Assembly (NCBI RefSeq): GCF_003386665.1
Contig: NZ_QTUB01000001.1
Span: forward strand, 3,782,001 to 3,846,000
Origin: Xenorhabdus cabanillasii
GTDB taxonomy: Bacteria; Pseudomonadota; Gammaproteobacteria; Enterobacterales; Enterobacteriaceae
Reading direction: 5' to 3'
DNA length: 64,000 nucleotides
Part shown: in pieces, positions 9,086 through 29,366 of the stretch
Layout of the letters: every line of letters begins with the position of its first letter
How positions within the stretch are numbered: position 1 is the first letter of the stretch
Made by a program: the position numbers and the translations under genes
Notes under the pieces: model-generated
The model's database searches: none
What the model was told of the DNA's origin: nothing
The model's input: only the letters and a program-made list of their open reading frames with translations

Positions 9086-9643
9086 ATGATGGCGAATCAG
9101 CCTGCCTTTCATGCTTCTTTTCAAAATGGTGCGGCATCTGATGCCGCACTGACTATTCCAATGACTAATACAAAAACGCTCAATGCCGGTGCTATGATGA
9201 CCAGCGCAACAACAGCCAATACGTCAATAACCAATACATCAATAATAGGCACCGCAACAACAAATGCCCCTTCCCTCTCTGCGGGACAAATGTTTATACA
9301 AGTCAGCAGTGCACTTGGTGGGATCTTATTATTGATTTTTTTCATGACATGGCTGATCCGTCGTCTGGGTCTTTCGCCTGCCAAGAACAAAAATCATCGG
9401 CTGCTTAACGTCAAGGCAAGCTGCTCACTTGGGCCAAAAGAACGAATTGTAGTGGTGGAGATCGAAGATAGCTGGCTGGTGTTGGGAGTGACATCCCAAC
9501 AAATTAATGTATTGCATCAGCTACCTGTGCCATCCGATAACACGGAAAAGGAAACCGTGCTTAAAACATTTCCTTTCGGTCAGTTATTAAAAAATACGCT
9601 CCAGCAAAAAAGTAAAAATGACAAGGATGGCGATGAAAAATAG
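9086..9643 (+). CDS. fliO: Flagellar export assembly protein FliO
   Basis: FliO is a membrane protein that helps assemble the FliP core of the export gate. This product is 185 residues (or 184 from the next Met), against about 120 in E. coli. The family core begins near residue 68, with a membrane helix ([19 protein letters not shown]) and the cytoplasmic domain [20 protein letters not shown]. The extra 60 or so N-terminal residues are Thr/Ala/Asn-rich low complexity. They may be real or may mean translation starts at an internal Met. It follows fliN by 2 bases. Confidence 0.9.
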
Positions 9644-10442
9644 AGTTTTTTTTATGACAGGCAATCAAAAGACAGGCCGAAAATTTGTCTCGCTTATTCA
9701 TCTGGTGCGTCTGGCAACTGTAATTATGGCATTTTTGCTATCACTGTTTCCCATAAATGCTGCCGCGGAACTACCCGGTATCATTAGCCAGCCACTGGTT
9801 AATGGTGGACAAAGTTGGTCACTGCCGGTTCAGACCCTGATTTTCATCACCGCACTGGGGTTTATTCCCGCGGCCTTACTGATGATGACCAGCTTTACCC
9901 GCATCATTATTGTGCTAGGTTTACTGCGCAACGCACTGGGAACACCTTCTGCCCCACCGAATCAGGTTATGTTGGGATTAGCATTGTTTATGACCTTTTT
10001 CATCATGGCACCGGTATTCGATAAAGTTTATCAGGATGCTTATCTGCCCTTCAGCGAAGATAAAATCACGCTGGAAGTTGCACTGGATAAAGGCTCTCAG
10101 CCTGTACGCCAGTTTATGCTGCGTCAGACACGGGAAAATGATTTGGCACTGTTTGCCCGCCTTGCCGATCAAAAGGCATTTGAAACGGCAGATTCTGTCC
10201 CGATGCGTGTTCTGGTGCCGGCCTTCATTACCAGCGAATTGAAAACCGCGTTCCAGATAGGTTTTACGCTTTTTATCCCTTTCCTGATCATCGACTTGGT
10301 TGTAGCCAGCGTCCTGATGGCTCTGGGGATGATGATGGTTCCACCTGCCACGATATCACTGCCGTTCAAACTGATGTTGTTTGTTCTGGTAGATGGCTGG
10401 CAATTATTGCTTGGCTCGTTAGCTCAAAGTTTTTATGTCTGA
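9633..10442 (+). CDS. fliP: Flagellar export gate protein FliP
   Basis: FliP forms the core pore of the flagellar type III gate with FliQ and FliR. I choose ATG 9633 (MKNRVFFM) because an AAGGA lies about 10 bases upstream; the 269-residue form has an N-terminal signal peptide-like segment ([19 protein letters not shown]), typical of FliP. The signatures [20 protein letters not shown] and the C-terminal [19 protein letters not shown] are present. It overlaps fliO by 11 bases, consistent with coupling. Confidence 0.96.
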
Positions 10443-10534
10443 TTCGTTTCTCTATCTGAATTTGATGAAAGTATCAGACAAAAATATTTGGCGTTAAATA
10501 TCATTGAAAAAGCTCAAGAACGGTTTAAAAAATT

Positions 10535-10804
10535 ATGACTCCTGAATCGGTAATGGCCCTCGGTGTTGAAGCAATGAAAGTCGCATTGGCGCTGGCTGCT
10601 CCACTGCTTTTATCAGCGCTGATATGTGGTTTAGTGATCAGCTTGTTACAGGCGGCAACACAGGTAAACGAAATGACCTTATCGTTTATTCCTAAAATTC
10701 TGGCCGTTGTTGTCACTATTATTATTGCCGGGCCATGGATGCTGAATCTGCTGTTGGATTACATGCGTACACTTTTTAGCAGTATTCCAGCCATTATTGG
10801 TTAA
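10535..10804 (+). CDS. fliQ: Flagellar export gate protein FliQ
   Basis: FliQ is a small two-helix gate subunit. The 89-residue product has two hydrophobic hairpin helices (about 15-40 and 50-75) and starts MTPESVMALG as in relatives. There is a 92-base gap after fliP, longer than other gaps in this operon; it shows no obvious gene or strong terminator. Confidence 0.96.
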   Translation: MTPESVMALGVEAMKVALALAAPLLLSALICGLVISLLQAATQVNEMTLSFIPKILAVVVTIIIAGPWMLNLLLDYMRTLFSSIPAIIG

Positions 10805-10806
10805 TC

Positions 10807-11589
10807 ATGATCCCGTTTGATAGTGAAACACTTTCCCGCCTCGTCAGTGATTTTTTCTGGCCAATGGTGCGTCTTTTAGCATTGTTCAGTATTGCCCCGA
10901 TTTTCAGTGAAAAACAGATGCCGGCAAAAGTCAGAATCGGCCTGGCATTAGTGATCACTGCCTTATTGGTTCCAAATATTCCTTCTCCTCAAATCCCGAT
11001 TTTTTCCGTTGCCGGGATTTGGGTTTTGGTACAGCAGATGCTGATTGGGGTTGCTCTGGGATTAACCATACAGATTGCATTTGCTGTGGTGCGTCATACA
11101 GGTGAAATACTTGGTTTACAAATGGGACTCTCTTTCGCCATATTTTTTGACCCCACCGGTGGCCCGAATATGCCAATCTTGGCGCGTATTCTGAATATGC
11201 TGATGATACTGTTGTTTCTGGCTTTTGATGGTCATTTATGGATATTGTCTATTCTGGCAGATACCTTTTATTCCATCCCGGTTCAATCTGCCCAATTGAA
11301 CCCCAGAGGTTTTCTGTTGCTAGCACAAAGTGCCAGCCTGATATTTATTAATGGTATGATGCTGGCAATGCCAATGATTACTCTGCTTCTGGTATTGAAC
11401 TTTTCTTTAGGCATGCTGAACCGCATGACCCCTCAACTTTCTGTATTTGTGGTCGGTTTTCCCCTGACTCTGACAGTCGGTATTTTCACACTTTCCCTAT
11501 TGTTCCCAATGCTGGTGCCATTTACTGAGCGGTTATTTGGCGAGATGTTCGATCGCCTGGCATTAATCATTAATAATATGGTGCTGTAG
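10807..11589 (+). CDS. fliR: Flagellar export gate protein FliR
   Basis: FliR is the third gate subunit; it joins FliP and FliQ in the export pore and contacts FlhB. The 260-residue protein is strongly hydrophobic with about six membrane segments. It carries the family block LGLQMGLSFAIFFDPTGGPN at roughly 100-120. It lies 2 bases after fliQ and ends the operon. After it the strand stays the same but base composition and content change to accessory genes. Confidence 0.96.
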   Translation: MIPFDSETLSRLVSDFFWPMVRLLALFSIAPIFSEKQMPAKVRIGLALVITALLVPNIPSPQIPIFSVAGIWVLVQQMLIGVALGLTIQIAFAVVRHTGEILGLQMGLSFAIFFDPTGGPNMPILARILNMLMILLFLAFDGHLWILSILADTFYSIPVQSAQLNPRGFLLLAQSASLIFINGMMLAMPMITLLLVLNFSLGMLNRMTPQLSVFVVGFPLTLTVGIFTLSLLFPMLVPFTERLFGEMFDRLALIINNMVL

Positions 11590-11641: not shown

Positions 11642-11761
11642 TTAGGCTGACCATTGGATGCCGTTAACCCACCATCCACTGGCAAGTCCTGGATTAGCAA
11701 TAGTCATAGGGGAACTGGTGCTATAAGCATCATTTTTCTCCACAACTAAACCTGAGCTAAT
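11642..11761 (-). pseudogene. Short orphan protein-tail reading frame
   Basis: On the minus strand of the 257-base gap after fliR, an open stretch of about 39 codons ends in a protein-like tail (GLASGWWVNGIQWSA-stop). It has no start codon, and a stop precedes it. The Trp/Gly-rich ending looks like the C-terminus of a larger protein whose front has been lost. I cannot name the family. No other gene is visible in 11590-11846. Confidence 0.3.
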
Positions 11762-11846
11762 TTAACATAATTCAGATATGATCTTGTTTTCTCTCACAAA
11801 AGAATGCATTATTGCCTCTTTTTTGCAGTTTAGTAGGTAATAAAAA

Positions 11847-12362
11847 GTGAAAATGAAATCATTATGCATCTCGGCAATCACAGCCTCTGCAATTATCATC
11901 AGTGGATGCCAATCCAATGCTGATTCATTTGCAGCAGATGTTTATGACACGACTCAGTTAAACGAAAAACAAGAAACAAAGACAATCAATATCATTTCTG
12001 TTCTTCCTGCCAAAATCGTTGTAGAAAACAACACTAATCAACAAGCTGCCCAGACATTTGGGGCCATTCTTGGTGCTGTGGCTGGTGGTGTTGTGGGTTA
12101 TAACGCAGGTCCCGGTTCCAGAGCAGGTATTGCGGCAGGTGCAATCGGTGGTGGTGCGCTTGGTGCAGCAGCAGGATCAATGGTCGATGATAAAGTCATC
12201 GTTGAAGGTGTCTCTCTTACCTATAAAGAAAACACTAAAATTTACACCTCAACTCAAGTCGGGCGCACATGCCAATTCACTCCAGGGCTAGCGGTAGTCA
12301 TTTCAACCAAAACAAATGAAACGCGCGTTCAGCCTAATGCTACGTGCCAGGATAAAAAATAA
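11847..12362 (+). CDS. Glycine-zipper outer-membrane lipoprotein
   Basis: Predicted lipoprotein of 171 residues. The signal peptide ends in a lipobox (IISGC, Cys at residue 21). Residues about 68-113 form a glycine-zipper double helix (GAILGAVAGGVVGYNAGPG, then GAIGGGALGAAAGSMV), as in SlyB/17-kDa-antigen-type lipoproteins. A C-terminal domain of about 55 residues with a Cys pair (TCQFTPG, ATCQDK) follows. The GTG at 11847 is better spaced from an AGG element than the ATG at 11853; both give a functional signal. It forms a pair with the next gene, 11 bases away. Function beyond envelope location is unknown. Confidence 0.85.
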   Translation: MKMKSLCISAITASAIIISGCQSNADSFAADVYDTTQLNEKQETKTINIISVLPAKIVVENNTNQQAAQTFGAILGAVAGGVVGYNAGPGSRAGIAAGAIGGGALGAAAGSMVDDKVIVEGVSLTYKENTKIYTSTQVGRTCQFTPGLAVVISTKTNETRVQPNATCQDKK

Positions 12363-12373
12363 GCAGGTGAACC

Positions 12374-12916
12374 ATGGTTAAAAAAATTCTTATTGCATCT
12401 TTACTGATCGTCCTATCCACTCCTGTACTTGCTTCATCTCTTCAAAGCCAGCTTTCTGCCATTGCTGAGGCAGAAAGTGAAGGTAAAGCAGAAGAGCAAA
12501 AACAGCAGGCCGAAAAAAAAGCTCAATTAGAAAGAGCAGCCAGAGCGGAAAGAGAAAGAAAGCAAAGAGAAACTGCCACCAGAGCAGAGAAAATCAGAAA
12601 GCAAGAAGCTAGCCGCAAAGCCGAAAAACAAAGAGTGCTGGCTGAAGCAGCAGCAGATAAGAAACGGGATCAGGCTTATGAAGATGAGCTGCGCAAACTC
12701 GAAATAGAGATGAAAAAACTTGAACTGGAGAAACGTTCAGCCAGAGCGAAGCGTGAAAATGAGTTCATCGATCAAGAATTAAAAACCCAGACAGCAAAAA
12801 CGGATGTTATCCAGTCAGAAGCTGATGCCAACCGTAATTTATCATCGGGCGCTAAATCTCTGTTAGAAAGCGAAGGCAAAGCCAGAGAGAAAAAATCCAG
12901 TAGTTGGTTTAAGTAA
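12374..12916 (+). CDS. Periplasmic coiled-coil protein (DUF5384-like)
   Basis: The 180-residue product has a Sec signal peptide (KKILIASLLIVLSTPVLA, cleavage near residue 21) and then an almost uninterrupted charged coiled coil rich in Lys, Glu, Arg, Ala and Gln (about 30-150). It resembles small enterobacterial periplasmic proteins of the DUF5384 type, but I assign this from general appearance only. An AGGTGA ribosome site lies 6 bases before the ATG. It probably shares a transcript with the upstream lipoprotein and ends at a strong hairpin at 12981-13017. Confidence 0.75.
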   Translation: MVKKILIASLLIVLSTPVLASSLQSQLSAIAEAESEGKAEEQKQQAEKKAQLERAARAERERKQRETATRAEKIRKQEASRKAEKQRVLAEAAADKKRDQAYEDELRKLEIEMKKLELEKRSARAKRENEFIDQELKTQTAKTDVIQSEADANRNLSSGAKSLLESEGKAREKKSSSWFK

Positions 12917-12980
12917 AAACTAACAGGCGTTAAAAACGATTAACTCAGTAGTAATTAACATCTAATATCTCCGAAAAATT

Positions 12981-13017
12981 ATTAAGATGTACTGACACTA
13001 AGTCGGTACATCTTAAT
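12981..13017. terminator. Bidirectional hairpin terminator
   Basis: A 12-bp perfect stem (ATTAAGATGTAC with GTACATCTTAAT) encloses a 13-base loop that can itself pair partly. A-rich sequence lies to the left and T-rich to the right. It sits between two convergent genes and can serve both. Confidence 0.85.
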
Positions 13018-13031
13018 TTTCAATAAAATAA

Positions 13032-13478
13032 TCAACTCCATGAGCCCGTTCCACCACCGATACCTGATACAATAGAAATTGCACCGCCAGAAAAATAACC
13101 AAGCGTTTGACTATATGAATTAAAGAACAAAACATTAAAAGTTATAGCCGTTGCATGAAACGCAAAACTGACAGTATCAGAATAAAGTTTAACTAAATCA
13201 TCTGTATGAACATTACCAAATACAGAACCTATTCCAGGAGTAGTCAGCCCTCCGGCATTCCCTTGAAAATGTTTTTTATCAGTATTTATAATGATGTCAA
13301 ACCGTATATAAAAAATAAAACTTTCTACAATACCTATAGCTGGATATTTTTTATTTTCCCAAAAAAATAGTTTTTCTACAGCATCATCAATAACACTGGG
13401 TTCCAATTTACCTTCCATATTTTTTTTGAAATCTTCAATAAATTTGAGATTTATTTCATTTTCTTTCACTTTACTCAT
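13032..13478 (-). CDS. VapA-family virulence-associated protein
   Basis: The 148-residue product strongly resembles the beta-barrel core of Rhodococcus equi VapA (Pfam R_equi_Vir). Shared blocks are FQGNAGGLTTPGIGSVFG (71-88), TDDLVKLYSDTVSF (92-105) and the glycine-rich end GGAISIVSGIGGGTGSW. The aligned spacing is essentially ungapped as I recall VapA. In Rhodococcus, VapA is secreted and neutralises the phagosome/endolysosome; whether this copy does so is inference. No signal peptide is present; the N-terminal 60 residues are charged and differ from VapA. I start at ATG 13478 because AGAGGA precedes it by about 7 bases; a longer frame lacks such a site. The gene is AT-rich and flanked by IS debris, suggesting transfer. 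Confidence 0.85.
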   Translation of the reverse strand: MSKVKENEINLKFIEDFKKNMEGKLEPSVIDDAVEKLFFWENKKYPAIGIVESFIFYIRFDIIINTDKKHFQGNAGGLTTPGIGSVFGNVHTDDLVKLYSDTVSFAFHATAITFNVLFFNSYSQTLGYFSGGAISIVSGIGGGTGSWS

Positions 13479-13712
13479 AACATATTCCTCTATATTAAAT
13501 AGAAATAACAACCCATAATAACAAACCTTACTGTATAATAAATCACACTGCGAGTGTATAATTTCCAGTAAATTACTGAAGTAAGTTAAAGTTATTTAGA
13601 ATAAAATAATTTATAAATGCTACTATTAAAGTATCGTAAATTATCCATAATATAATAAATATCATTTTACTATATTAAATAATTTTTTAGACATAAATGA
13701 TGATAATAACTT

Positions 13713-13937
13713 TTAATTCCCTAAATAGCTTGTCATAATGATGAGACTCTTATATTTCTCATTTCTTTCCAAGTCGTTAACGAGGGCCCTTTTCAAAAAA
13801 ATTTTCACATTACGAATAAGCTGCCACATAAATTGGCAACAATGATTGCGTGTCACCGTTTGTATGTTGATTTCTCGGCCCTGGCTGACACCATAGACCG
13901 TGTCGCGCCACGTAGTAGTTCTCCCAAATGTACTAGC
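13713..13937 (-). pseudogene. Orphan 74-codon C-terminal fragment next to IS
   Basis: An open frame of 74 codons without a credible start reads as a protein tail (for example TWRDTVYGVSQGREINIQ, later FMWQLIRNVKIFLKRALV) and ends at 13713. It abuts the left end of the IS481-type remnant, so it may be the 3' piece of a gene cut by that element; no matching 5' piece is seen on the other side. Family unknown. The rest of 13479-13712 is AT-rich with no gene that I can support. Confidence 0.35.
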
Positions 13938-13949
13938 TCAGACTTGAGC

Positions 13950-14516
13950 TGACAGTTACCGGTTATTTATACAGGTGTCTGTCAGATTATATCTGGGTTA
14001 AATTCTTTTCAGCCCAAATACGTTTTCCATCCAATAATGTTTCTATTGGTGTTCGACCACAGCACATTTTTCCTTGGTGAGTTCGAACATTATTATAGTA
14101 ATACAACCATTCATCAAGAGCAGATTGTAACGTTTCAAGGTCGCTATAAAGCTTCTTACGAAACGTAATTTGATAAAACTCCTGTAATATCGTTTTGTGA
14201 AAACGTTCACAGATACCATGAGCTTGCGGTGACATCGCTTTTGTTTTCGTAGGGTCGATATCATTAATGGCAAGATATAAACACCACCTTGCTCAGCGAG
14301 CTCTCGATATCGATAAAATGCATCACGAGACACGCCCATTACCTTGCATGCTTTCGAAACATTCCCGAGCTCTTCAGCTAAATTAAGCAAACCTGCTTTG
14401 TGTTTAATGATGGGATTGTTAGTATGGATCATGAGAGTTACCTTTTGTGTTTTGTATAAAGATTCGACACCCATATCAAAATTGGTAACTCTCAACTTTT
14501 CAAGTTGAACTGTCAG
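13950..14516. mobile_element. Deleted IS481-type insertion sequence
   Basis: The transposase fragment is bracketed by short inverted ends, TGACAGTT at 13950-13957 and AACTGTCA at 14509-14516. At about 570 bp it is roughly half the size of a normal IS481-family element, because the central transposase region is deleted. The end positions are approximate: only 8 bp match exactly and no target duplication was recognised. Confidence 0.55.
13987..14432 (-). pseudogene. IS481-family transposase, internally deleted
   Basis: The first about 50 codons (from MIHTNNPIIKHKAG, 14432) carry the helix-turn-helix of IS481 transposases (SKACKVMGVSRDAFYRYREL). After AEQGG the sequence jumps near 14280 to the C-terminal integrase core (DIDPTKTKAMSPQAHGICER, then YNNVRTHQGKMCCGRTP) in another frame. 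The middle, with the first catalytic Asp residues of the DDE core, is gone. The element cannot make an active transposase. Confidence 0.85.
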
Positions 14517-14539
14517 ATCTAATCGCGACTAATACAACT

Positions 14540-15424
14540 TTACATAATTCGATATTTACTGCGAATATCTCTGACCTGAGATTTGAGTTGCCCACAGCCA
14601 CCCAAAATTTCTGTACCATCACTTTTATCTGATATGCATCGGAAACCGGCTTCAGTAAGTGCTTTGGCAAAAGCGGGCATCTCTTCTGAAGGATTCAATG
14701 ATATTCCATTTATGTCACTCACTTCATTCAGGTATTTTAGCTTGATAACAAATGTGTCTTTATCTACCAGATCTTTTAACCGTGCCAAATCCTCTTGTGA
14801 ATCATTTATTCCCTCTAGCATCAGATAATTGACAATGACTGGAACGCCCGTATGGTGATGATAAGTTGAAAAATGTTCAAGAAGATCTTTAATACCAAAT
14901 TTCGCTTTTGATGGAATCAACATATCGCGTTGTTCATCAGTGGTGGCATGAAGCGAAATAGAAACGGTATCCAGTGGAAGCTCATAAATTTTATCTCCCG
15001 CGTGGCGAATACCGACCGTTGTCAGCGTGACCCTATTTGCCAATGTCTGCTTTTTGAACTCAGTGACTGCACCACTGATCTCTTTCAAATTCAACATTGG
15101 CTCACCCATTCCGGCAAACAATATCGTATTAAGCCCCTCATTACCTCCCAGTGCCCCTGAATGTAATAAATGATCACGGCATAATACAACCTGCTGTACT
15201 ATTTGCTCTGTCGTCATATTTCCTAACGGTTGCTGCCTGCCTGTTTCACAGAACACACAACCAACAGCACAACCATATTGACTGGATATGCAAAGGTAAG
15301 GCAAACGTTGTTCTGTATGCATAAAGAACGTTGATTCAACGCTTTTTCTTAAATCTGAATCACTTGCTGATAGTAAATATTTTTTGGAACCATTTTCTGA
15401 TTCCACAACTTCGCTAATTTTCAT
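14540..15424 (-). CDS. RlmN/Cfr-like radical SAM methyltransferase, short form
   Basis: The 294-residue protein has the radical-SAM cluster motif C52-x3-C56-x2-C59 (GCAVGCVFC). It also has both Cys residues characteristic of RlmN/Cfr methyl synthases: C277 in GGCGQL (equivalent to the methyl-carrying Cys of E. coli RlmN) and C45. The GMGEPMLN motif is present. It lacks about 80 N-terminal residues (the helical RNA-binding domain) found in RlmN, which is normally about 380 residues. I start at ATG 15424, 7 bases after AGAAGG; a GTG at 15430 is too close to that site. It is the third gene of an operon with an atypical radical-SAM-like protein and a 2OG-Fe dioxygenase. The substrate may be a small molecule or peptide and not rRNA; this is inference. 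Confidence 0.85.
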   Translation of the reverse strand: MKISEVVESENGSKKYLLSASDSDLRKSVESTFFMHTEQRLPYLCISSQYGCAVGCVFCETGRQQPLGNMTTEQIVQQVVLCRDHLLHSGALGGNEGLNTILFAGMGEPMLNLKEISGAVTEFKKQTLANRVTLTTVGIRHAGDKIYELPLDTVSISLHATTDEQRDMLIPSKAKFGIKDLLEHFSTYHHHTGVPVIVNYLMLEGINDSQEDLARLKDLVDKDTFVIKLKYLNEVSDINGISLNPSEEMPAFAKALTEAGFRCISDKSDGTEILGGCGQLKSQVRDIRSKYRIM

Positions 15425-15436
15425 CTTCACACCTTC

Positions 15437-16435
15437 TCAATGCTCTTTGGCGCGACGGCGCATATCAGAAACTCCACACATTTTAGGGCTGGACAGAGGC
15501 AAATCAGATTGAATAACTTCCTGATGTGTCTTAACCGGATCAATGAATAATTTTTGGATTTCATCCAGTTGCAGTGTGGAAAGATAACTACTATCGATAC
15601 CCTGATAATTTTCTGGGATCGTCGTTGTTGTGGGGAAAACAAGTTGCTCCAGATATAAACGACCGCTCCAGAATTCATCACCTTTATCCAGTGGCTTAGT
15701 CATATCAGAATTGACTAACTCAGAAATTTTGGCGTTGTAAGGAAATCGCAGGCTGTTTTCGGCCGCAGGATAGTCATATTTTACCATCCAGTCGACAATG
15801 TTTTGTTGTCGCGCCATCAATATAATATCTTTAAAGAATGCAGTTAATACTATGGGAATTACGATCCCTCCTGCATTACGATAATTTTCAATAAAATCCA
15901 GCCGTTGTTTCAATTGTACATTGGTATCTAACGCACTAACCGAAACTCTTATTTCTGCTTTAGCCGTAATTAAGCGTCGCATAATGTCATCTGACATTTT
16001 CCGGAAAGCTTTGGTGATAAATATCATCAACAATCCCGTATCCCGTGCCAACTCAGTCATTCGTATAGATAACGGCCAATTCCACGATGGATCACTATTC
16101 CATCCACATCTGATATATTTTTGACAATGAGGCAAAGCATGCAGGTCAGAAAGAAAAATAGCTTCATCTAATTGATTATCGATTCGCTTACCAAAATCAA
16201 TACCATTTTCCCAACTGGAAATAGCAGAAAAACACATTCCATAACAAGCCATACTTTCTGGCAAACACCCTGTCACAACATCAGTAGTTAAGCTATTAAA
16301 AGGTAATCCTCCAGCAATTCCTGCTCTTATCAACATTGGTTCAGCGGGTTTAAGTTTACGTCCCTTACTATATGTTTCGTTACTTTTCCTGACTAATTGC
16401 TTAATAAGTTTTTCTTGTCGTTCTCTTATATGCAT
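15437..16435 (-). CDS. Atypical radical-SAM-like protein (CX6CX3C)
   Basis: I do not recognise a named family for this 332-residue protein. Its architecture suggests a radical-SAM-type barrel: an N-terminal Cys cluster (TGCLPESMACYGMC, C57, C64, C68), a later CGWNSDPSWNWPLS segment, then alternating beta/alpha stretches (LLMIFITKAF, AEIRVSVSALDT, GGIVIPIVLTAFF). The Cys spacing is CX6CX3C, not the canonical CX3CX2C, so an iron-sulfur cluster is plausible but unproven. It starts 1 base after the dioxygenase stop and is followed after 6 bases by the RlmN-like gene, so the three are co-transcribed and probably act in one pathway. Confidence 0.65.
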   Translation of the reverse strand: MHIRERQEKLIKQLVRKSNETYSKGRKLKPAEPMLIRAGIAGGLPFNSLTTDVVTGCLPESMACYGMCFSAISSWENGIDFGKRIDNQLDEAIFLSDLHALPHCQKYIRCGWNSDPSWNWPLSIRMTELARDTGLLMIFITKAFRKMSDDIMRRLITAKAEIRVSVSALDTNVQLKQRLDFIENYRNAGGIVIPIVLTAFFKDIILMARQQNIVDWMVKYDYPAAENSLRFPYNAKISELVNSDMTKPLDKGDEFWSGRLYLEQLVFPTTTTIPENYQGIDSSYLSTLQLDEIQKLFIDPVKTHQEVIQSDLPLSSPKMCGVSDMRRRAKEH

Positions 16436-16436
16436 A

Positions 16437-17282
16437 TTATGTCTCCGTTATTTCTCTGCCAAGTATTTTCGTTTGATAAGAAATATCTGGATAAATTTTC
16501 AATGCTTTAATAAACCGATCTCCAGAAAAACATTCACGGCGATGCAAAAGCTGACTGTTATCATATAAAAGCAAATCGCCCTCACTCCACTGATGTGAAT
16601 AAGTGTTTTCTGGAGATATTATTTTTTCCAGAATAGTTTTTTTCAGTTCTTTGGAATCAGGCAGGATTTGATTATTATCAAGAAATTCCAGTGTATTTTC
16701 ACTGACATAAACATATTTCTTTTTTGTTTTTGCATTTTCAATTATCACAGGATGAGCAACGGTGATATGAGGAACATTATCGTGTGCAGCGGCTGGCTGG
16801 CGAGTCGACCACAGTTTGTTTAATAATGAAAGTTCATCAGCGGTAAATTCCAGATGCTCTACGGCGGCGGAAGCAAAAGAGGTATTTCCCCCCTGGCATT
16901 GCATAACTTCACTATAAAGTATACTGACAGAAGCCGGATTGAGGCGAAATTCCTGGTCTGAATGCCAAAAGTCTGTGCCATTATCAGCAAAACCCAGTTG
17001 TTCACCTTTGTTATTACATAAGTTGGTTAAGTAAGCGATATATCTTCGCTTATCTGACAAAGAAATATCCCTGGCTGGTTCTTCAAGTTCTCCATTTCCT
17101 ACACGCTGGGCAAAACTAACAAGATCATCATCACCCATTTTCTGATTGTTAAAAATCAGCAAACCATAAGTGGACATATATGATTTTATAGCAATGTAAT
17201 CTTCATCTGACATATCGGAAACATTTTCACATGTAACATAAGCACCAAAATGTTTGCTGAAAGGTTTTATCGTAAACGGCAT
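16437..17282 (-). CDS. Fe(II)/2-oxoglutarate dioxygenase, TauD/clavaminate type
   Basis: The 281-residue protein has the TauD-fold iron triad: H107-x-D109 (FWHSDQEF) and distal H247 (LLHRRECF), with R256 nine residues later to bind 2-oxoglutarate. The QGGNTSFASA block after the HxD is typical of TauD/clavaminate-synthase enzymes. I start at ATG 17282 because GGAG lies about 9 bases upstream; an upstream frame extension lacks one. It is the first gene of the operon leading to the two radical-SAM-type proteins and presumably hydroxylates or desaturates their substrate or product. Substrate unknown. Confidence 0.88.
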   Translation of the reverse strand: MPFTIKPFSKHFGAYVTCENVSDMSDEDYIAIKSYMSTYGLLIFNNQKMGDDDLVSFAQRVGNGELEEPARDISLSDKRRYIAYLTNLCNNKGEQLGFADNGTDFWHSDQEFRLNPASVSILYSEVMQCQGGNTSFASAAVEHLEFTADELSLLNKLWSTRQPAAAHDNVPHITVAHPVIIENAKTKKKYVYVSENTLEFLDNNQILPDSKELKKTILEKIISPENTYSHQWSEGDLLLYDNSQLLHRRECFSGDRFIKALKIYPDISYQTKILGREITET

Positions 17283-17888
17283 GAGAATTCTCCATATTAA
17301 ACATTTATCACAATTAATTACTTTCAATGAATACCAACAAAATATCTATTAACCATGTATAAATAGTAAAATATATAAACTTTATTCTATATATTCATAT
17401 ATTGAAGGTGTTTTATAGCGTTTCAGGTGGGAATGATAACTCAATAGTTCATTAGTTAAGGTGATTAAAAATCATTGGTTAAATAACAAAAATTTTTATT
17501 GTAAATTTCAGTTCATTTATCAAATACACTGTTATTTGATAGAATATTTACGATTGCAGGCATATTATATTTCATCAACCTTTAAATATAATAAAAATAA
17601 TACCATCCAATTAGTTTGTTATCTGTTTTATACCCAATAATTTTCAAGTTATATCACTACAGAAAGGGAAAAATCCCCGATAGTATAGATAACAAAAGAT
17701 AAAATTACCGACTGAATAAAATCAGCTTTAACTCAGAGTAATTCCATAAAAAGTTACACATAATATGTATCACCTCTATATACAATAAGAATACAGTAAG
17801 TTAAATTCTTGAACGTAGTTTAATAGAAAGAAATAAATAAAATTTTCGAGGAGAAGTAATAAATCACACCATTTAAAAGGAGAAATTA
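17283..17888. other. AT-rich divergent intergenic region
   Basis: This 600-base, very AT-rich gap separates the minus-strand dioxygenase operon from the plus-strand SGNH gene and must hold both promoters. It contains no open frame that I can support. A half copy of a dispersed palindromic repeat lies at about 17630-17654. The A+T content is high even for the island and suggests foreign DNA. Confidence 0.6.
17630..17654 (+). repeat. Half copy of dispersed palindromic repeat
   Basis: The sequence TATACCCAATAATTTTCAAG matches the left arm of the repeat found complete at 18857, 24694 and 50467. The right arm is absent. Confidence 0.6.
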
Positions 17889-18815
17889 ATGACATATAAA
17901 CAATCATATCTTTCTGACATAACACATTCCCCGTGGGAAGTTAATGACGCTCCATTATTAATCGTCCTTGGTCAATCAAACAGTTATGGTCATGGTACTC
18001 AATTATCATCAAATGAAGCAATTATTCAGGGTTTAGAAAACGTATTCACCTTATCCCTGCCAGAAGTTTATAGCGTTAATTTTTCCACAATTAATTGGAC
18101 GGGGTTAACCAGTTTTGGTTATGCCAATATTGGTGCTCCTTGCGGTCTGCCACGTGGTAATCAGGATCACCCTGTCAATCTCGCAAATCGTTTCGCCCGC
18201 CACTGGCAAGATCATATCGACGCAGGTAACACACTTAATTTGCCTGATCTTTATGTCATTCTGATGGGCTACGGTAGACAGGGGATGTATTTGCCTGATA
18301 TTCCTGATAATCGTTGGGCACCGGAGCGAGATCCTGACGATGTAGAATCTCTCTATCCCCGCGCCGTCAGAACACTACGTATGGCGGTTAATTCCCTGCG
18401 TAAAATGGGTAAAAATCCTCGTATACTGGCTGTTCACTGGAATCAGTGGGAAGCAGAAACTGAAAGTTTAGCGGCAGCAAAAGCATCAGAGATGAATTTT
18501 ATCCGTATTATTACCGGCCTCAGTGATGCCATAGGCTCCCGCGGTATACCGTGGAGATTTTATTACCCACTTTCAGTCTGGTTTGATCCCATTAATACCA
18601 GTTACGTTACCGAGGCAATTAATAGCGTTATTGCCGCCAATCCTGAATACCGAACACTGGTTGATGCCAGAAATGCGCCAAACTACAATGGAATAGCCAC
18701 TCAATTTGGCGTATTTACCTGCGATGATATGCATTACAACGGAGAAACCCAGAAGTGGTTTGCTCAGCAGGAATGGGAACGAATTTTAGCGGGTTATCAG
18801 GGTATTAAATTGTGA
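17889..18815 (+). CDS. SGNH-fold esterase (sialate O-acetylesterase-like)
   Basis: A 308-residue hydrolase. Block I is LIVLGQSNSYGHG with the nucleophile Ser at 30, the GQSN form used by the SASA/DUF303 acetylesterase branch. The C-terminal catalytic pair is in CDDMHYNGE (Asp 279 or 280, His 282). No signal peptide is visible, so it probably acts in the cytoplasm. AGGAGA lies 6 bases before the ATG. It is divergent from the dioxygenase operon and may remove or add an acyl group in the same pathway; that link rests only on position. Confidence 0.82.
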   Translation: MTYKQSYLSDITHSPWEVNDAPLLIVLGQSNSYGHGTQLSSNEAIIQGLENVFTLSLPEVYSVNFSTINWTGLTSFGYANIGAPCGLPRGNQDHPVNLANRFARHWQDHIDAGNTLNLPDLYVILMGYGRQGMYLPDIPDNRWAPERDPDDVESLYPRAVRTLRMAVNSLRKMGKNPRILAVHWNQWEAETESLAAAKASEMNFIRIITGLSDAIGSRGIPWRFYYPLSVWFDPINTSYVTEAINSVIAANPEYRTLVDARNAPNYNGIATQFGVFTCDDMHYNGETQKWFAQQEWERILAGYQGIKL

Positions 18816-18856
18816 AGTATATGGAATCGTGATTGCAAAAATATGGCGGCTTAACT

Positions 18857-18904
18857 TATATCCGTCGTCTTTCAAGTCGCCTCTTGAAATCCATAGGATA
18901 CATA
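18857..18904. repeat. Dispersed palindromic repeat, full copy
   Basis: An imperfect palindrome of about 48 bases with the arms CGTCTTTCAAG and CTTGAAATCC around a GC-containing centre, ended by TATA-type bases. The same structure occurs at 24694 and 50467. It lies between the convergent SGNH and ArsR-like genes and can form a hairpin in RNA. Confidence 0.75.
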
Positions 18905-18908
18905 CCGC

Positions 18909-19593
18909 CTATATTCCAACACCAAACCTCTGCTGAATGACTCTTTTTCCCTGCGCTGTCAATTTCAGCTCACGGCTATCTAATTGCCTGACAGCCCACT
19001 TCTTTTGCAAAAAAGTTTTAAGCAAAGAGGCGCCTAAAAAACCACTCAGATGAAAATACCGTTCGCTCCAATCCAGGCAAGCACAGGCAAACTTTCGTCT
19101 TGAAACTGTTTCCATATCGCAGCACACACCAAGAGAAAATAAAAACTCTTTTCCTTGCGGTGTCAATTTATAGTCATCAGTTATCCAAAGGTTAGAAAGC
19201 AAACTATTATGAATTTTTACTGCCACCTCTCCTGCCATATGGTCATAACAGGTTCGGAAAAAGCGCAGTGATTTTTGGTGTGGAAATTTTGATAGTACTT
19301 ATATCTTCGCTATTAGCAAAACACATCATGCTTTCCAGTAATACAGCGACGTCTTCACTGTAAATTTTAAAATAACGGAATCTTCCCTGTTTAATGCAAA
19401 TCACCAGATTTTGTTCTACCAACCGACTTAAATGAGCACTCATTGTCGAAGGAACCACATCAGCAATAGCACTTAATTCAGTAGCAGTATAAGCACGACC
19501 ATCCATCATTAAAAATAGTATTCGGGTACGAGTGCGATCTGCCAGTAAAGCTGCAATGGCAGACACTCTTTTTTCAAGATTGAATTCATTCAT
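18909..19593 (-). pseudogene. ArsR-family regulator, frameshifted
   Basis: Two frames together make one winged-helix regulator of about 228 residues. The N-terminal part (19243-19593) has the ArsR helix-turn-helix (ATELSAIADVVPSTMSAHLS). The C-terminal part (18909-19270) continues with RTCYDHMAGEVAVKI and ends in a dimer region found in the long ArsR subfamily. The frame breaks at a run of five T (19273-19277 on the plus strand). With one base fewer it would read through as PKSLRFFRTCYDHMAG. I start at ATG 19593 (MNEFNLEKRV). As given it would make only a DNA-binding half-protein. It may have regulated the neighbouring biosynthetic genes. Confidence 0.8.
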
Positions 19594-19787
19594 ATACAAA
19601 TGATTACTGGAAGTAAAAATGAATTCCAAAAGATATATCAGCGTTGCCCATTCTTCAACAAATAATTATTCTTGAGCTACATCATATATACAGCTTTAAC
19701 ATATTGACAAATAATTTATAAACATCAAGAATCACAAATAAAATCTAATAAACATTTAAGTTTTTTATCTTATGATTTCAGACTGCT

Positions 19788-19812
19788 AACTTGAAAGAAG
19801 AAGGGTATATAA
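19788..19812 (+). repeat. Half copy of dispersed palindromic repeat
   Basis: AACTTGAAAGAAGAAGGGTA followed by TATA matches the right arm of the repeat at 24694. It lies in the ArsR/hydroxylase intergenic region, which is otherwise AT-rich and without a gene (19594-19874). Confidence 0.6.
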
Positions 19813-19874
19813 ATCAATCATCCTTAAAAGATATACAACAATATATTTTATAAATATACGATAAGGGGATAAAT

Positions 19875-20718
19875 ATGCCACATAAAAATAAATCACCTAT
19901 TAACATATTTAATTTAGAACAAGTTGGAATTAACAAAAATAATTTCATCAATAAAATAAAAAAATTTTATCATTTATATGAACCTGATTTGTATTTAGTC
20001 AGACAAGAAAAAATTAAAGCTCTGGCCAAAAAAATCACTGATTTCTTTTGAAAAAGATAGTGTTCTCCTGACTAATTATTATTCTAATATTATCAGCGAG
20101 CATGAATTCAGAGAAAATCTGAATTTTAATGCTTCCTGTTTCTTTGATACATTATCCAATATTAAGTCGTATAGAAAGAGATTAATATCAACTTTTATTT
20201 TTAACAAAGACAGTGGAATAAAACGGATAAAAAGTGGCAGTTTTAATCAGGTCGGAGCAGGAACCAAAAAAAATACTTTTGATTTCAGAATAATCCCCAG
20301 ATTATTTAAAGAAGCGCCTGAAGAGATGGAATCAGATGATTTATTTAAGTTAATATTCTTTATAGCCGATCGCGTTTTTCAGTATGAAACAATTTCTCAA
20401 TTTAAGGTTATCACCCATTATACTTTAATAGATTGCTTTACCGATGATGGGATAGAAACCTCTAATTCACCGGAGGGAATCCATCAGGATGGAGTGGATT
20501 ATATCGTATCCGCTTTAGTTCTGGAGCGAGTTAATATTTCAGGTGGCGACAGTAAAATCTATATTGGTGATAAAAATAATCACATTCTGACCACTCAGCT
20601 ACAGAGTGGGCAAGGAATATTTCAGCCAGATAAAGGCACTGATTTGTGGCACGAAGTCACCCCAATAAAATTGATAGATCCTAAAAAGAGAGGTTATCGC
20701 TCTACTATTGGTTTTTGA
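19875..20718 (+). pseudogene. 2OG-Fe dioxygenase (PF10014 type), frameshifted
   Basis: The ATG at 19875 follows AAGGGG by 8 bases and reads 58 codons to a TGA at 20049-20051. The remaining about 222 codons are open in another frame from about 20029 to 20718, joined at a run of seven A (20028-20034); six A would restore one protein of about 280 residues. The second part carries the iron triad of the PF10014 2OG-Fe dioxygenases: H and D in PEGIHQDGVDY, distal His in LWHEVTP, and Arg in GYRSTIGF. Members of this family hydroxylate free amino acids. Because all catalytic residues survive, the break is recent, or a slippery site, or a sequence error. It shares the GIHQDG motif with the intact gene at 51763. 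Confidence 0.8.
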
Positions 20719-20876
20719 CATTGATCTTAGGTATAGCACTACCAATAAGTTCTAATTCATGGCCAAAGCAGGGTTAAAGCCAGAGTAAAACTATCCCATC
20801 ATATTTCGATAATCACCGAAGTGGCCACAAAACCTGCAAGATATCATGGCGTTTTCTATCCTTCAGAGGAACAATA

Positions 20877-21206
20877 ATGTTAGCTGTCATATTTGAAGTC
20901 GAAATCGCAGAAAACCAAAGTGAACGTTACTTTGATGCCGCAGCCACACTCAGGCCACTATTAGATCCCATTCCGGGTTTTATTTCCGTAGAACGTTTCC
21001 AAAGCCTCAACAATAAGAATAAATATCTCTCATTATCATATTGGAATAATGAAGAATCCATTAAACAGTGGCGAAATACTTACCAACACCGGGAAGCACA
21101 AACGTTAGGGCACAACAGTATATTTGCAGATTATCGATTAAGCGTTACAGCCATTATTCGTCATTATGGAATGCATGAACGGGAGGAAATACTAAAAGAA
21201 GATTAA
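20877..21206 (+). CDS. ABM-domain (antibiotic biosynthesis monooxygenase-like) protein
   Basis: The 109-residue protein fits a single dimeric alpha/beta-barrel domain. Blocks include AVIFEVEIAENQSERYFDAA, then PGFISVERFQS and LSLSYWNNEESIKQW, which are typical of ABM monooxygenases and heme/quinone-modifying relatives. AGAGGAACAATA precedes the ATG. It follows the broken hydroxylase by 158 bases and may belong to the same set. An actual enzymatic role cannot be read from sequence. Confidence 0.78.
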   Translation: MLAVIFEVEIAENQSERYFDAAATLRPLLDPIPGFISVERFQSLNNKNKYLSLSYWNNEESIKQWRNTYQHREAQTLGHNSIFADYRLSVTAIIRHYGMHEREEILKED

Positions 21207-21227
21207 AAAATATTTTGGTTGTTATCT

Positions 21228-21258
21228 ATTGGGAGATAAATTCCCGTCATCTCCCAAT
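21228..21258 (+). terminator. Hairpin after ABM gene
   Basis: A 10-bp stem (ATTGGGAGAT with ATCTCCCAAT) with an 11-base loop lies 22 bases after the ABM stop. No long T-run follows, so efficiency is uncertain. Confidence 0.6.
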
Positions 21259-21299
21259 AAATAACCATTTTTAGGTAATTAGACTTATTAAAGGACATA

Positions 21300-21660
21300 T
21301 CAGAGACTAGTCGCGAACGAACAACCCATTAATCGACCAAAGAACATCCAATACCAATATCCCATTGAAAATCCTGCAACCAGTACATAACTGATCGATT
21401 TTAATTTACACAGTGAAAATGCTTTGATGCCTTTCACTGCAAATACCAACATAAATGGCAATAGAAAAAAAAAGACATAATGGTGCTGTCAATATTCTGT
21501 CATCATTGATGACAAAAGAACTGACCACATCACAAATGGTATTGATCCCTTCTTCCCCGATCGTCCACTCAAAATCAACTGTTGACAAACATCCTATCAA
21601 TATAGTACTGAACAAAATAAAGGTGATACAGGCGAGTATATTTATAATTTTCATGCTCAT
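21300..21660 (-). pseudogene. Small inner-membrane protein, frameshifted (DUF2645/YjeO-like)
   Basis: The first frame (21406-21660) starts MKIINILACITFILFSTILI, with a lipobox-like LIGC, then EWTIGEEGINTICDVV and DDRILTAPLCLFF. It then falls out of frame at a run of nine A (plus strand 21465-21473). With eight, the protein would continue as LLPFMLVFAVKGIKAFSL and YVLVAGFSMGYWYWMFFGRL to a stop at 21300, giving about 119 residues with three or four membrane helices. The pattern recalls the DUF2645 (YjeO) family, a tentative match. Function unknown. Confidence 0.65.
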
Positions 21661-22003: not shown

Positions 22004-22967
22004 TTATCGATACATTTCAAACAGAGACATTCCTTTTAAGTCTGTAAACGCTTTAAAAGAAGCCTGCAAAGCAGCCTGTTGTTGGTAATAGCTGGAAATA
22101 GTCTCAGTCCAATCCATATCGACCAATTCCCCAGAGCGAACTTTATTGGCAATACTACGTTCACTACCCAAAGAATCCAGTTTCTCCAATTCCTGAAGCT
22201 GTAAACCAAGTACGGCTTCCACAGAAGATAAGTTATTCAGGCTGTTACGGATCCCACGGTTAGCTTTATTCATCAGCTCCATAGCTTCGTTTTTCTGTTC
22301 TTCAGTCGCCGAACTGTATGGCGTTCTCAATGCTTTGATTGCCATATCAATGGTGGCAAAAACATCAGATTCACTCGAACTGCCATCAGGTTCCTTAATC
22401 GGGCTGGATGTCCCTGATAACAAGACCTGCTGCCCGGTATGAGCAATCACCATTGTGCGGTTATCATCCACTTTCTGGGTGATTTCTTGGTGACCTCCGA
22501 CGTAACTGACTTTACCATCTTTATCAGCTATAAAAGGAGGCTTATCTGTTTTAAAACCAGCAAAAATATAACGGCCATTACCATCAGTTTTATTGCCGAG
22601 GTTCAACAGCTCTTGTTTAAGACCTTCCAATTGCTGCGCATAGGATTCACGATCCTGAGCACTCTGTTCATCCGCAGCCGCAACTAAAGTCTCAAACACG
22701 TTAGTTACCACTTTAACGGCATTAGAAGTAATGCTCAGCTGGGATGACATGGCATTTTTTGGCAAAAATGCGGGCAGTCATAAACTGATGGTTTTTCGAT
22801 TCAGACTGAGAAACTATGATGTTTTGTGATGCAGCCAAAGGATCATCAGATGGATTCATTACCCGGCGACCGCTGGACAGTTGTTCACCATATTTCATCC
22901 ATTTGGATTGAGCGTCAAAAATCCCATTCATTTTTTGGCTGTATAATAGATTCGTACTTACACGCAC
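22004..22967 (-). pseudogene. flgL: Hook-filament junction protein FlgL, frameshifted
   Basis: FlgL is the second junction protein between hook and filament, required for a stable filament. The N-terminal frame (22722-22967) starts at a GTG (RVSTNLLYSQKMNG), with AAGGAA upstream, and contains SGRRVMNPSDDPLAASQ. After MTARIFAK it leaves frame at a run of six A on the coding strand (22755-22760). With five it would continue as NAMSSQLSITSNAVKVV and run intact to LFEMYR at 22004, giving about 320 residues, the normal size. As written the cell would make no full FlgL and should be non-motile, so either the strain is a motility mutant or this is a sequence error. It lies 21 bases after flgK in the same transcript. 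Confidence 0.9.
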
Positions 22968-22988
22968 AATATCATTTCCTTTTTGTTA

Positions 22989-24629
22989 TCAGCGAATGTT
23001 CAAAATAGCATCGAACAAAGTTGTCGCCGTCTGGATCACACGGGCGTTTGCCAGATAGTACTGCTGCATACGTTGCAGTTCGCCGTATTCTTCGTCCATA
23101 TTAACGCCGGAAATTGATTCACGGATCGATTTCAGTTTATCAACAATGTGGCCTTGTGTTTCGACGCTGATATTTGCGCTATTGGCTTTGCTGCCCACTG
23201 TACTTACCAGTGAGGCGTATGCTCCGGCAAGGGAAGCCTTGCCATCCACCAAACGTTTATCCTGTAATTCAAGGAATTTCTTCGCGTTGCGGTTATCACT
23301 TGGGCCAGCATCTTTGGTTCCCGCCGTTGCCAATTGAGATGAATCCTTGAGATTCACTTCCAACGTTGCCACGACGTTACTGACTGTTTTCAGCGTGTAT
23401 TTATCGTGATCCTGTATGTTAGTAGCATCAATTTCTACTTTCAGCCCATCGAATTCCAGCGTATTGCCGTTTTTGGTCACAGCAACCATTTCGCGATCAG
23501 AAAAACGCTGTACTTTCCAATCTCCACCTTCATATTTAAGAGTGTAATCACTGGCTTTCACTTTAGTGGTATCGGTGTACTCCACCTTGATGTCAGCCGT
23601 ACCTTTGTTATCACTGTTAGAAACAACATCTGGTTTGGTGAAGCTGAAGAAATCAATGCCCGGTTTACCTTTCAGGTCAAAGCCACCATGTTGTACCAGG
23701 TTAAATTGGTCAGCCATGACCAGTGCCAGTTGGTTCAGTTCATTGCGGGTTGAATCGACAACTTCGCTGCGCACACGCAATGCACCGCCCAACTTGCCGC
23801 CTGAAATGAAACGCTCATCAATTTCTCTCGTACCCACTGTGCCATTGTTATAACCCAGAGTAATACGGCTACTGTCAGTACTCGATGGAATAGCTTCCAT
23901 CTGGTAGAATTTACTCCCCGATACCAGTGACATACCGCCACCGAATGAGACGTTATAAACCTTGCTATCCTGCTGAGTGACATCCACTTCCACCAGCTCA
24001 TTTAATTTACTGACTGCCAAATCACGTTTATCCAGCAATGCCAGCGGTTCACCTGTACCAACACCACGCATCCGGGTGATTTCATTGTTCAGTTTGGCAA
24101 TTTCTTCTGCGTATTTATTGATCTCTTTGACATTCTGCTCAATCTGAGAATTGATACTGCTATCAACCTGACGCAAAAATTCATCCGACTCTTTGAATCG
24201 GCTGATTAAACCTTCTGCTTTACCTAAAACAGTCGTTCTTGCTGTGCTGTCTTCTGCATTGCTTTCAACCGTCCCCAGACTTTTGAAAAAGTCTTCAATA
24301 GAGTTTGACAGACTGGTGTCTTTATCTGCCAACAAGTTGTTGATTTTGGTCATCTGCTCGTTATAAGCCTTTAAAGCAGACTGTTTGGTTTGCGCAGAAC
24401 TGTATTGCTGATTGATAAACTCGCTATATTCACGGTTAATGGTAGTCACCGTCACACCGTTACCCACAAAACCAGCGGGTGACATAGTTCCATTATTTTG
24501 TGTCATTACGGTGGTCTGTCGGTTGTAGCCTTCGCTTCTGGAGTTGGCAATGTTATTACTCACTACACTCATTGCCACCTGTGCGGCATTAATACCACTC
24601 ATGGCAGTATTCATAAGACTGTTGGACAT
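22989..24629 (-). CDS. flgK: Hook-associated protein FlgK
   Basis: FlgK (HAP1) is the first hook-filament junction protein, exported through the flagellar channel with FlgN as chaperone. The 546-residue length is standard. The N-terminal rod/hook motif (NTAMSGINAAQVAMSVVSNN) and the C-terminal helix (LQRMQQYYLANARVIQTA) form the D0/D1 coil; the middle is variable. AAGGATC lies upstream of the ATG. A sigma-28 promoter lies at 24757-24783, as expected for a late gene. Confidence 0.97.
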   Translation of the reverse strand: MSNSLMNTAMSGINAAQVAMSVVSNNIANSRSEGYNRQTTVMTQNNGTMSPAGFVGNGVTVTTINREYSEFINQQYSSAQTKQSALKAYNEQMTKINNLLADKDTSLSNSIEDFFKSLGTVESNAEDSTARTTVLGKAEGLISRFKESDEFLRQVDSSINSQIEQNVKEINKYAEEIAKLNNEITRMRGVGTGEPLALLDKRDLAVSKLNELVEVDVTQQDSKVYNVSFGGGMSLVSGSKFYQMEAIPSSTDSSRITLGYNNGTVGTREIDERFISGGKLGGALRVRSEVVDSTRNELNQLALVMADQFNLVQHGGFDLKGKPGIDFFSFTKPDVVSNSDNKGTADIKVEYTDTTKVKASDYTLKYEGGDWKVQRFSDREMVAVTKNGNTLEFDGLKVEIDATNIQDHDKYTLKTVSNVVATLEVNLKDSSQLATAGTKDAGPSDNRNAKKFLELQDKRLVDGKASLAGAYASLVSTVGSKANSANISVETQGHIVDKLKSIRESISGVNMDEEYGELQRMQQYYLANARVIQTATTLFDAILNIR

Positions 24630-24693
24630 GTGTAGATCCTTTTACGTTTTCGTTATGCCTCCATCACAGGAGGTCAACTGCTGTCGTTATCGG

Positions 24694-24742
24694 TATATAC
24701 CCAATGGATTTCAAGAGGCAACTTGAAAGACGAAGGGGATAA
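24694..24742. repeat. Dispersed palindromic repeat, full copy
   Basis: TATATACCCAATGGATTTCA begins the left arm; ACTTGAAAGACGAAGGGG forms the right arm. It lies in the flgK leader, between the sigma-28 promoter and the start codon, so it would be transcribed and could fold in the flgK mRNA. Confidence 0.75.
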
Positions 24743-24756
24743 ATTATCTGTAAAAG

Positions 24757-24783
24757 TTATCGGCAGGATATTCTGATCCTTGA
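24757..24783 (-). promoter_or_regulatory. Sigma-28 promoter of flgKL
   Basis: On the minus strand TCAA, 15 bases, then a perfect GCCGATAA. This matches the flagellar sigma-28 pattern TAAA-N15-GCCGATAA with one mismatch, and lies about 130 bases upstream of flgK. Confidence 0.8.
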
Positions 24784-24807
24784 ACAAAAATGATTTGGGC
24801 TGTCCGG

Positions 24808-26918: not shown

Positions 26919-26933
26919 CCTGACCATCCTCTT

Positions 26934-27725: not shown

Positions 27726-27756
27726 CTTCGATGCTCTTAAGTTTATCGTAGAAATC

Positions 27757-27776
27757 GTGGGGAATTTATTCCCCAC
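27757..27776. other. Perfect short hairpin between flgG and flgH
   Basis: GTGGGGAAT, two bases, then ATTCCCCAC. The hairpin is between flgG (upstream in the transcript) and flgH. There is no T-run, so it may act as an mRNA stability or partial attenuation element. One arm contains the GTG that could be an alternative flgH start. Confidence 0.6.
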
Positions 27777-27791
27777 TGATTAATGATTCGG

Positions 27792-28571: not shown

Positions 28572-28588
28572 GAATTTATCTCCCCCGA

Positions 28589-29344: not shown

Positions 29345-29366
29345 AAAGCTATCCGCCTGAGCTTAA

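Follow-up and report, generated by a model that had tools for sequence, protein, structure and literature searches.

A compact operon in Xenorhabdus cabanillasii combines a TauD-type dioxygenase, a likely radical-SAM protein with a CX6CX3C motif and a short RlmN-like protein

RlmN and Cfr, both of which methylate RNA, are prominent class A radical S-adenosylmethionine (SAM) methylases, and their described mechanism involves a methylated cysteine residue (PMC9692996). A different point of reference is thmABC, a three-gene radical-SAM cluster for 4'-thiothymidine in Photorhabdus (PMC12691670). Here, we present an analysis of a compact operon at positions 14540 to 17282 of a 64,000-nucleotide stretch of DNA from Xenorhabdus cabanillasii, an insect-associated bacterium, the whole of which we refer to as the window. 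The operon consists of genes for a TauD/TfdA-family Fe(II)/2-oxoglutarate dioxygenase (TauD), a protein with the working name MID and a short RlmN-like protein. We consider it likely that the operon is a compact, horizontally spread module in which TauD and MID build a small-molecule scaffold and the RlmN-like protein C-methylates it. With less assurance, we lean towards concluding that MID founds a new CX6CX3C radical-SAM family that acts as a unit with TauD, that the RlmN-like protein methylates a small molecule, and that this pathway is present in nematode symbionts, plant-associated Paraburkholderia, actinomycetes and marine bacteria.

thmABC resembles the operon in that three genes form a compact radical-SAM cluster whose surroundings vary, in a nematode symbiont of the sister genus; in contrast, its other two genes encode a nucleoside kinase homologue and a nucleoside triphosphatase, and the word dioxygenase is absent from the text of that report (PMC12691670). 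Based on this comparison, thmABC appears to parallel the operon in scale but not in its enzymes. A literature search of titles and abstracts, with most subscription papers outside its reach, returned no report of a TauD protein together with the MID family, no RlmN-like enzyme in a biosynthetic cluster and no small-molecule class A methylase; the available part of PMC12858407 mentions RlmN only in the reference list. Compact radical-SAM biosynthetic clusters are a known kind of system, and what is new here is probably one enzyme family and one use of class A methylases.

Among 5.8 billion proteins searched, 114 members of the MID family were identified, MID itself included, from sources that include Xenorhabdus, Francisella, Paraburkholderia, Caballeronia, Burkholderia, Streptomyces, Nocardia, Actinosynnema, Mycobacterium, Sphingomonas, Pseudoalteromonas, Chryseobacterium and Sphingobacterium; relatives were absent from the viral, plasmid and phage collections searched. 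The family is sharply bounded, and a profile-based search in which 8000 candidates were scored only extended the same family and reached no distant named family. MID matches no Pfam family above the cut-off (in 104 relatives, only scattered single matches with E values of 0.035 or worse were found) and no NCBIfam family, and it is not among the 15 matches obtained when the whole genome, with its 4.34-Mb chromosome, was scanned with PF04055. The canonical cluster motif CX3CX2C is not present; instead, MID has the motif CX6CX3C (C57, C64 and C68), which is kept in 103 of 104 aligned rows, the remaining row being truncated before the motif. The alignment comprises 104 of the 114 proteins, and the ten left out are mostly partial or fused. 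Residues D52, C68, D97, G111, W112, N113, D115, S117, W120, G190, Q210, E226 and R230 are invariant.

The order strand, Cys loop, helix and strand, continuing to a sixth strand, is the layout of the radical-SAM half-barrel. The AlphaFold2 model of MID (predicted local distance difference test [pLDDT] score 96.3, predicted template modelling [pTM] score 0.93) starts with a short strand (54-55), the Cys loop, a helix (69-76) and a further helix (91-99); these are followed by strand/helix pairs at 107-110/116-132, 136-141/149-157, 161-167/172-187 and 191-198/204-219 and a strand at 225-228. A conserved GWNSD landmark follows the second strand, and the third strand ends with TK. Read by eye from the predicted secondary structure, the element order fits that of a radical-SAM half-barrel whose Cys loop immediately follows the first strand, and the model suggests that MID is likely a radical-SAM enzyme. 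Two known families bear comparison. DUF5131 (PF07505) proteins, which we take to be of the phage Gp37/Gp68 type, have CX6CX2C in 15 of 15 loci and an SD landmark in 13 of these and, in one locus (L103), also an LTK landmark, the order of the landmarks matching that in MID; however, MID has one more residue between the second and third Cys, and PF07505 is unmatched in 104 MID members. Judged by its motif, DUF5131 would be a near precedent for the odd Cys spacing of MID. The spore photoproduct lyase (SPL) family (PF20903) gives a collinear 178-column alignment with MID in which the landmarks partly match, whereas the 20 SPL loci used have CX3CX2C.

The TauD of the window has both features of the TauD/TfdA family, i.e. 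the PF02668 match and the HxD...H metal ligands, which are kept in 24 of 24 aligned rows; it scores far under every NCBIfam subfamily cut-off that it touches. In this family, the Asp of HxD argues for a hydroxylase- or desaturase-type reaction and not for a halogenase. Scanning the genome collection with sequence patterns gave 75 matching stretches, and 29 loci encode MID. A TauD of >100 bits is encoded upstream on the same strand, or is fused to MID (L023), in 23 of the 29 loci, and the TauD domain is joined to MID in three database clusters (P0099, P0146 and P0149); the L023 fusion protein has the same length as P0099 and may belong to it. TauD and MID have correlated distances (Pearson 0.95, Spearman 0.69, Mantel p 0.001, 23 rows), and the same is true of the RlmN-like protein and MID (Pearson 0.92, Spearman 0.51, 11 rows); seven of the 29 loci (L011, L014, L019, L021, L025, L027 and L029) were left out of the distance test. 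The pair also occurs in Paraburkholderia genomes (L006, L007 and L026), two of which are labelled symbionts, presumably with a leaf-nodule habit. Altogether, the TauD-MID pairing is well supported. The RlmN-like gene is found in 10 of the 29 loci, where it follows MID, separates TauD from MID or precedes TauD; searching the 29 genomes in full also revealed unlinked copies in X. innexi and X. stockiae as well as one in Burkholderia multivorans that contig ends cut short. In Ca. Paraburkholderia calva, a different contig carries fragments of the RlmN family; these could be of either RlmN type and were dropped as ambiguous.

By model score, the RlmN-like protein is most like RlmN (166.9 bits against TIGR00048, under the curated cut-off of 290, compared with 107-110 bits against the Cfr models); Cfr was compared by model scores only. 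The protein has 294 residues from ATG or 296 from the GTG at 15430, and its model has a pLDDT of 88.6. Like RlmN and Cfr, it keeps CX3CX2C, the methyl-carrying and resolving Cys (C277 and C45 in the 294-residue form, C279 and C47 in the 296-residue form) and the conserved Glu. In contrast to RlmN, the N-terminal RNA-binding domain is missing: the match to the RlmN model begins at position 69 of 355, and only 26-56 residues precede the catalytic Glu compared with 93-109 in 17 of 18 canonical rows, the eighteenth (L068) being trimmed. All 16 locus-derived rows (14 MID-linked and two orphans) have the catalytic Glu, the resolving Cys, the three cluster Cys and the methyl-carrying Cys. Of 30 further short rows from the database, some of them copies of locus-derived ones, 29 have the same set; in the exception, P0124, Ser replaces the methyl-carrying Cys. 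In a 64-row tree of canonical RlmN and short rows, from which the partial P0130 was left out, the 18 canonical RlmN split from all short proteins with support of 100/100. A canonical rlmN lies elsewhere on the chromosome (G000:C1:2404411-2405475, 561 bits), and we therefore rejected the idea that the short gene is the housekeeping rlmN. These data agree with the preliminary description of this DNA, which had noted a compact three-gene operon with small gaps, an RlmN-like protein keeping C45, C277 and the cluster without the N-terminal region, and a middle protein of non-canonical Cys spacing for which it had no name. Moreover, it had suggested the structure prediction for MID, the phylogeny of the short RlmN-like protein and the co-occurrence analysis of the three genes, and the results support its interpretation. 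Of the two outcomes that it had named as refuting, a predicted MID fold with no cluster site and a short RlmN-like protein placed among true RlmN in a chromosome with no second rlmN, neither was observed.

Among 30 Xenorhabdus genomes, MID is present in 13, of which two have it partially (G014, near a contig edge, and G019). A TauD orthologue of >400 bits is found in 12 genomes and an intact RlmN-like gene in eight, all of them within the 13 with MID; the patchy presence of the RlmN-like gene with TauD-MID differs from that of canonical RlmN, which is present in all 30. The probability that random placement would nest the RlmN-like gene within the MID genomes in this way is 2.2e-4, uncorrected for kinship. 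Five of the 13 genomes have MID without an intact RlmN-like gene, and two genomes without MID retain only RlmN-like fragments. In X. bovienii, the TauD orthologue (L077, ~11686-12819) is split by a ~1.1-kb insertion containing a 357-residue open reading frame (ORF). In X. innexi and X. stockiae, the unlinked RlmN-like gene lies beside a decayed MID 3' end (L075 9578-9748 and L076 10424-10628, respectively) with no TauD match there, and a full-length TauD-MID pair is found on another contig. Both orphans are intact, with ratios of nonsynonymous to synonymous substitution rates (dN/dS) of 0.04-0.08 in the seven comparisons involving them and 0.076 between the two, and are under purifying selection. 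Tc toxin-complex genes are found near the X. stockiae orphan (L076 2-8057). Because genomes that retain the RlmN-like gene also retain TauD-MID, whether or not the two are linked, and TauD-MID also occurs without the RlmN-like gene, the RlmN-like protein probably carries out an accessory, later step.

The genes around the core in other genomes mostly indicate a setting of specialised metabolism. In Burkholderia singularis (L015), TauD-MID is followed by two more TauDs, a nonribosomal peptide synthetase (NRPS) with condensation, adenylation, peptidyl carrier protein and thioesterase domains (C-A-PCP-TE) and a cytochrome P450, and ORF lengths and clustering indicate the same order in Burkholderia sp. 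TSV86 (L020); the adenylation domain of the two NRPSs gave no clear substrate. PCP-TE didomains are encoded in three Streptomyces loci (L010, L012 and L018). A cobalamin (B12)-type radical-SAM protein, recognised by Pfam, follows the RlmN-like protein in L013 and L028, and clustering places a homologue of it in L017 and L024; all four loci have the RlmN-like gene. Genes for major facilitator superfamily (MFS) transporters adjoin the core in M. simiae (L014) and Trichodesmium (L023), and the L023 protein scores above the cut-off of a DHA2-type efflux model. The other neighbours tested had no Pfam match or were seemingly unrelated.

We propose the following pathway. TauD would use O2 and 2-oxoglutarate to oxidise an unactivated C-H bond in a small metabolite. 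MID, with a [4Fe-4S] cluster held by CX6CX3C, would act as the functional partner of TauD on the same scaffold, presumably cleaving SAM, in a radical rearrangement, coupling or cleavage. The RlmN-like protein would be a class A methylase shifted from RNA to the pathway product. Here, SAM would first methylate C279 (296-residue form); a 5'-deoxyadenosyl radical would abstract a hydrogen from the methyl group on C279, the S-CH2 radical would add to an sp2 carbon of the product, and C47 would help to release the methylated product. If correct, a natural small-molecule member of class A would open cobalamin-free C-methylation of sp2 carbons, and a radical-SAM family invisible to Pfam would escape family-based genome mining. 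If MID is a radical-SAM enzyme, one may ask how an O2-labile cluster functions next to the O2-using enzyme in the MID-TauD fusions. The small size of two or three genes makes the product directly testable in a laboratory strain.

Several observations weigh against this proposal. Sequence and profile methods show no kinship of MID to any radical-SAM family: its PDB matches are at chance level (E values of at least 0.34, mostly to [Fe] hydrogenase), and a profile search returned only the insulin receptor (E 2.1). MID was also compared profile to profile, using hhalign, with the SPL, DUF5131, RlmN-like, canonical RlmN and TauD alignments; it reached 1.0% with DUF5131 versus 1.3% for a column-reversed MID control, 0.4% with SPL versus 0.5% for this control, and a score with the RlmN-like alignment that was not above the reversed control. 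Because recognised radical-SAM families also score low in this test (9.8% for the RlmN-like protein with SPL and 0.7% for DUF5131 with SPL), it had little power. TauD is found only as pieces in two MID loci (L014 and L029) and not at all in four (L019, L021, L025 and L027), and in one Xenorhabdus genome that lacks MID, TauD is broken into two pieces where a contig ends; the assembly may simply not include MID at this point. The locus-derived RlmN-like proteins do not form one clade (approximately unbiased [AU] test, p 3e-5); since most of the intermixed rows in the tree are database proteins without a known neighbourhood, repeated recruitment and unseen operons are both possible. Lastly, no substrate is consistently suggested because the genes around the core vary by locus.

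The non-canonical Cys spacing, the failure of PF04055 to detect MID and the lack of a significant profile match to SPL or DUF5131 would also fit a different barrel-type protein, perhaps a partner of TauD, in which the three Cys bind Zn or a structural Fe-S cluster. We consider this improbable because the predicted element order and the positions of GWNSD and TK follow the radical-SAM half-barrel layout and because DUF5131 proteins carry the similar CX6CX2C. The intact class A site of the RlmN-like protein, together with the fact that its nearest characterised relatives are RNA methylases, could instead mean that the operon modifies RNA, with the RlmN-like protein methylating a tRNA or rRNA adenine, and with TauD and MID further oxidising or rearranging the same nucleoside. 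However, the N-terminal domain is absent, MID does without an intact RlmN-like gene in more than a third of the Xenorhabdus genomes that have it, and the core elsewhere adjoins NRPS or PCP-TE genes and transporters, arguing that action on RNA is quite improbable. Rather, a biosynthetic pathway accounts for the co-occurrence, the fusions and the neighbourhoods better than rRNA methylation does, and these findings support the preliminary description, which had favoured a biosynthetic or modification pathway. Dioxygenases and B12 methylases also occur in clusters for ribosomally synthesised and post-translationally modified peptides (RiPPs). Reviews, as far as their available parts go, describe radical-SAM enzymes as common in such clusters, and the three enzymes might accordingly tailor a ribosomally made peptide. 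This we regard as highly improbable: within 1.5 kb on either side, the window operon shares no ORF of 20-110 codons with the flanks of 13 other loci (E <1e-4), a precursor encoded farther away not having been sought. An anti-phage defence system was rejected since none of the three proteins matches a PADLOC defence model at E 0.01. We therefore retain the small-molecule pathway as the preferred explanation.

On the minus strand, the TauD and MID genes are separated by 1 bp and the MID and RlmN-like genes by 12 bp (Table 1); TauD has 281 residues when read from ATG, and the three genes have a G+C content of 0.37-0.40 compared with 0.43 in the window. The Xenorhabdus proteins among the relatives are 74-96% identical, which places the DNA in this genus or close to it. 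Of 13 comparisons with further Xenorhabdus copies, 12 gave a dN/dS of 0.05-0.21; the thirteenth is without value, as dS is saturated. Together with the conservation of CX6CX3C among the MID relatives, these low ratios show that the ORFs are real genes, and we rejected the possibility of a chance ORF or a dead gene. Based on blastn, the DNA homology to the X. yunnanensis locus (L001) within window positions 12000-21500 spans 14537-17497 only, and the homology to both this locus and that of X. japonica (L011) stops at 17497. A pyridoxal-decarboxylase-type gene lies upstream in five congeneric loci (L001 by Pfam and four more by clustering), whereas the window operon is flanked by flagellar genes. 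The confined homology and the differing flanks indicate that a unit of ~3 kb has moved. Pfam identified flagellin N, FlgK, FlgI, FlgH and FlgG/FlgE types at 22004-30587, and we take 9618-11589 to contain fliPQR-like genes; with flagellar genes on both sides, the operon would sit in an insertion within a flagellar region.

Table 1. Features of the operon and its borders (window positions)
Feature	Position	Strand	Basis
TauD/TfdA-family Fe(II)/2-oxoglutarate dioxygenase, first gene	16437..17282	-	PF02668 118 bits; HxD...H
MID, second gene, undescribed family, CX6CX3C, probable radical-SAM half-barrel	15437..16435	-	332 residues
Short RlmN-like class A radical-SAM methylase without N-terminal domain, third gene	14540..15424	-	TIGR00048, catalytic set, tree
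Upstream region travelling with the operon in the nearest relatives	17283..17497	-	blastn
Shortened IS481-family element abutting the operon 3' end, outside the pathway	13929..14536		inverted ends, plasmid matches

The upstream region may contain a promoter; promoter-like matches within it were not above those in shuffled sequences (13 versus a shuffle mean of 17.0), and the promoter is putative. The IS481-family element has imperfect inverted ends (13929-13957 and 14508-14536) and ends 3 bases from the stop codon of the RlmN-like gene. It measures ~0.6 kb compared with ~1.2 kb in its plasmid relatives among the matches listed, and the five listed plasmid matches are annotated as IS481 family transposase. 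Farther away, an ORF at 20326-20718 matches only positions 69-189 of the 192-position PF10014 (2OG-Fe dioxygenase family) and is probably a truncated gene.

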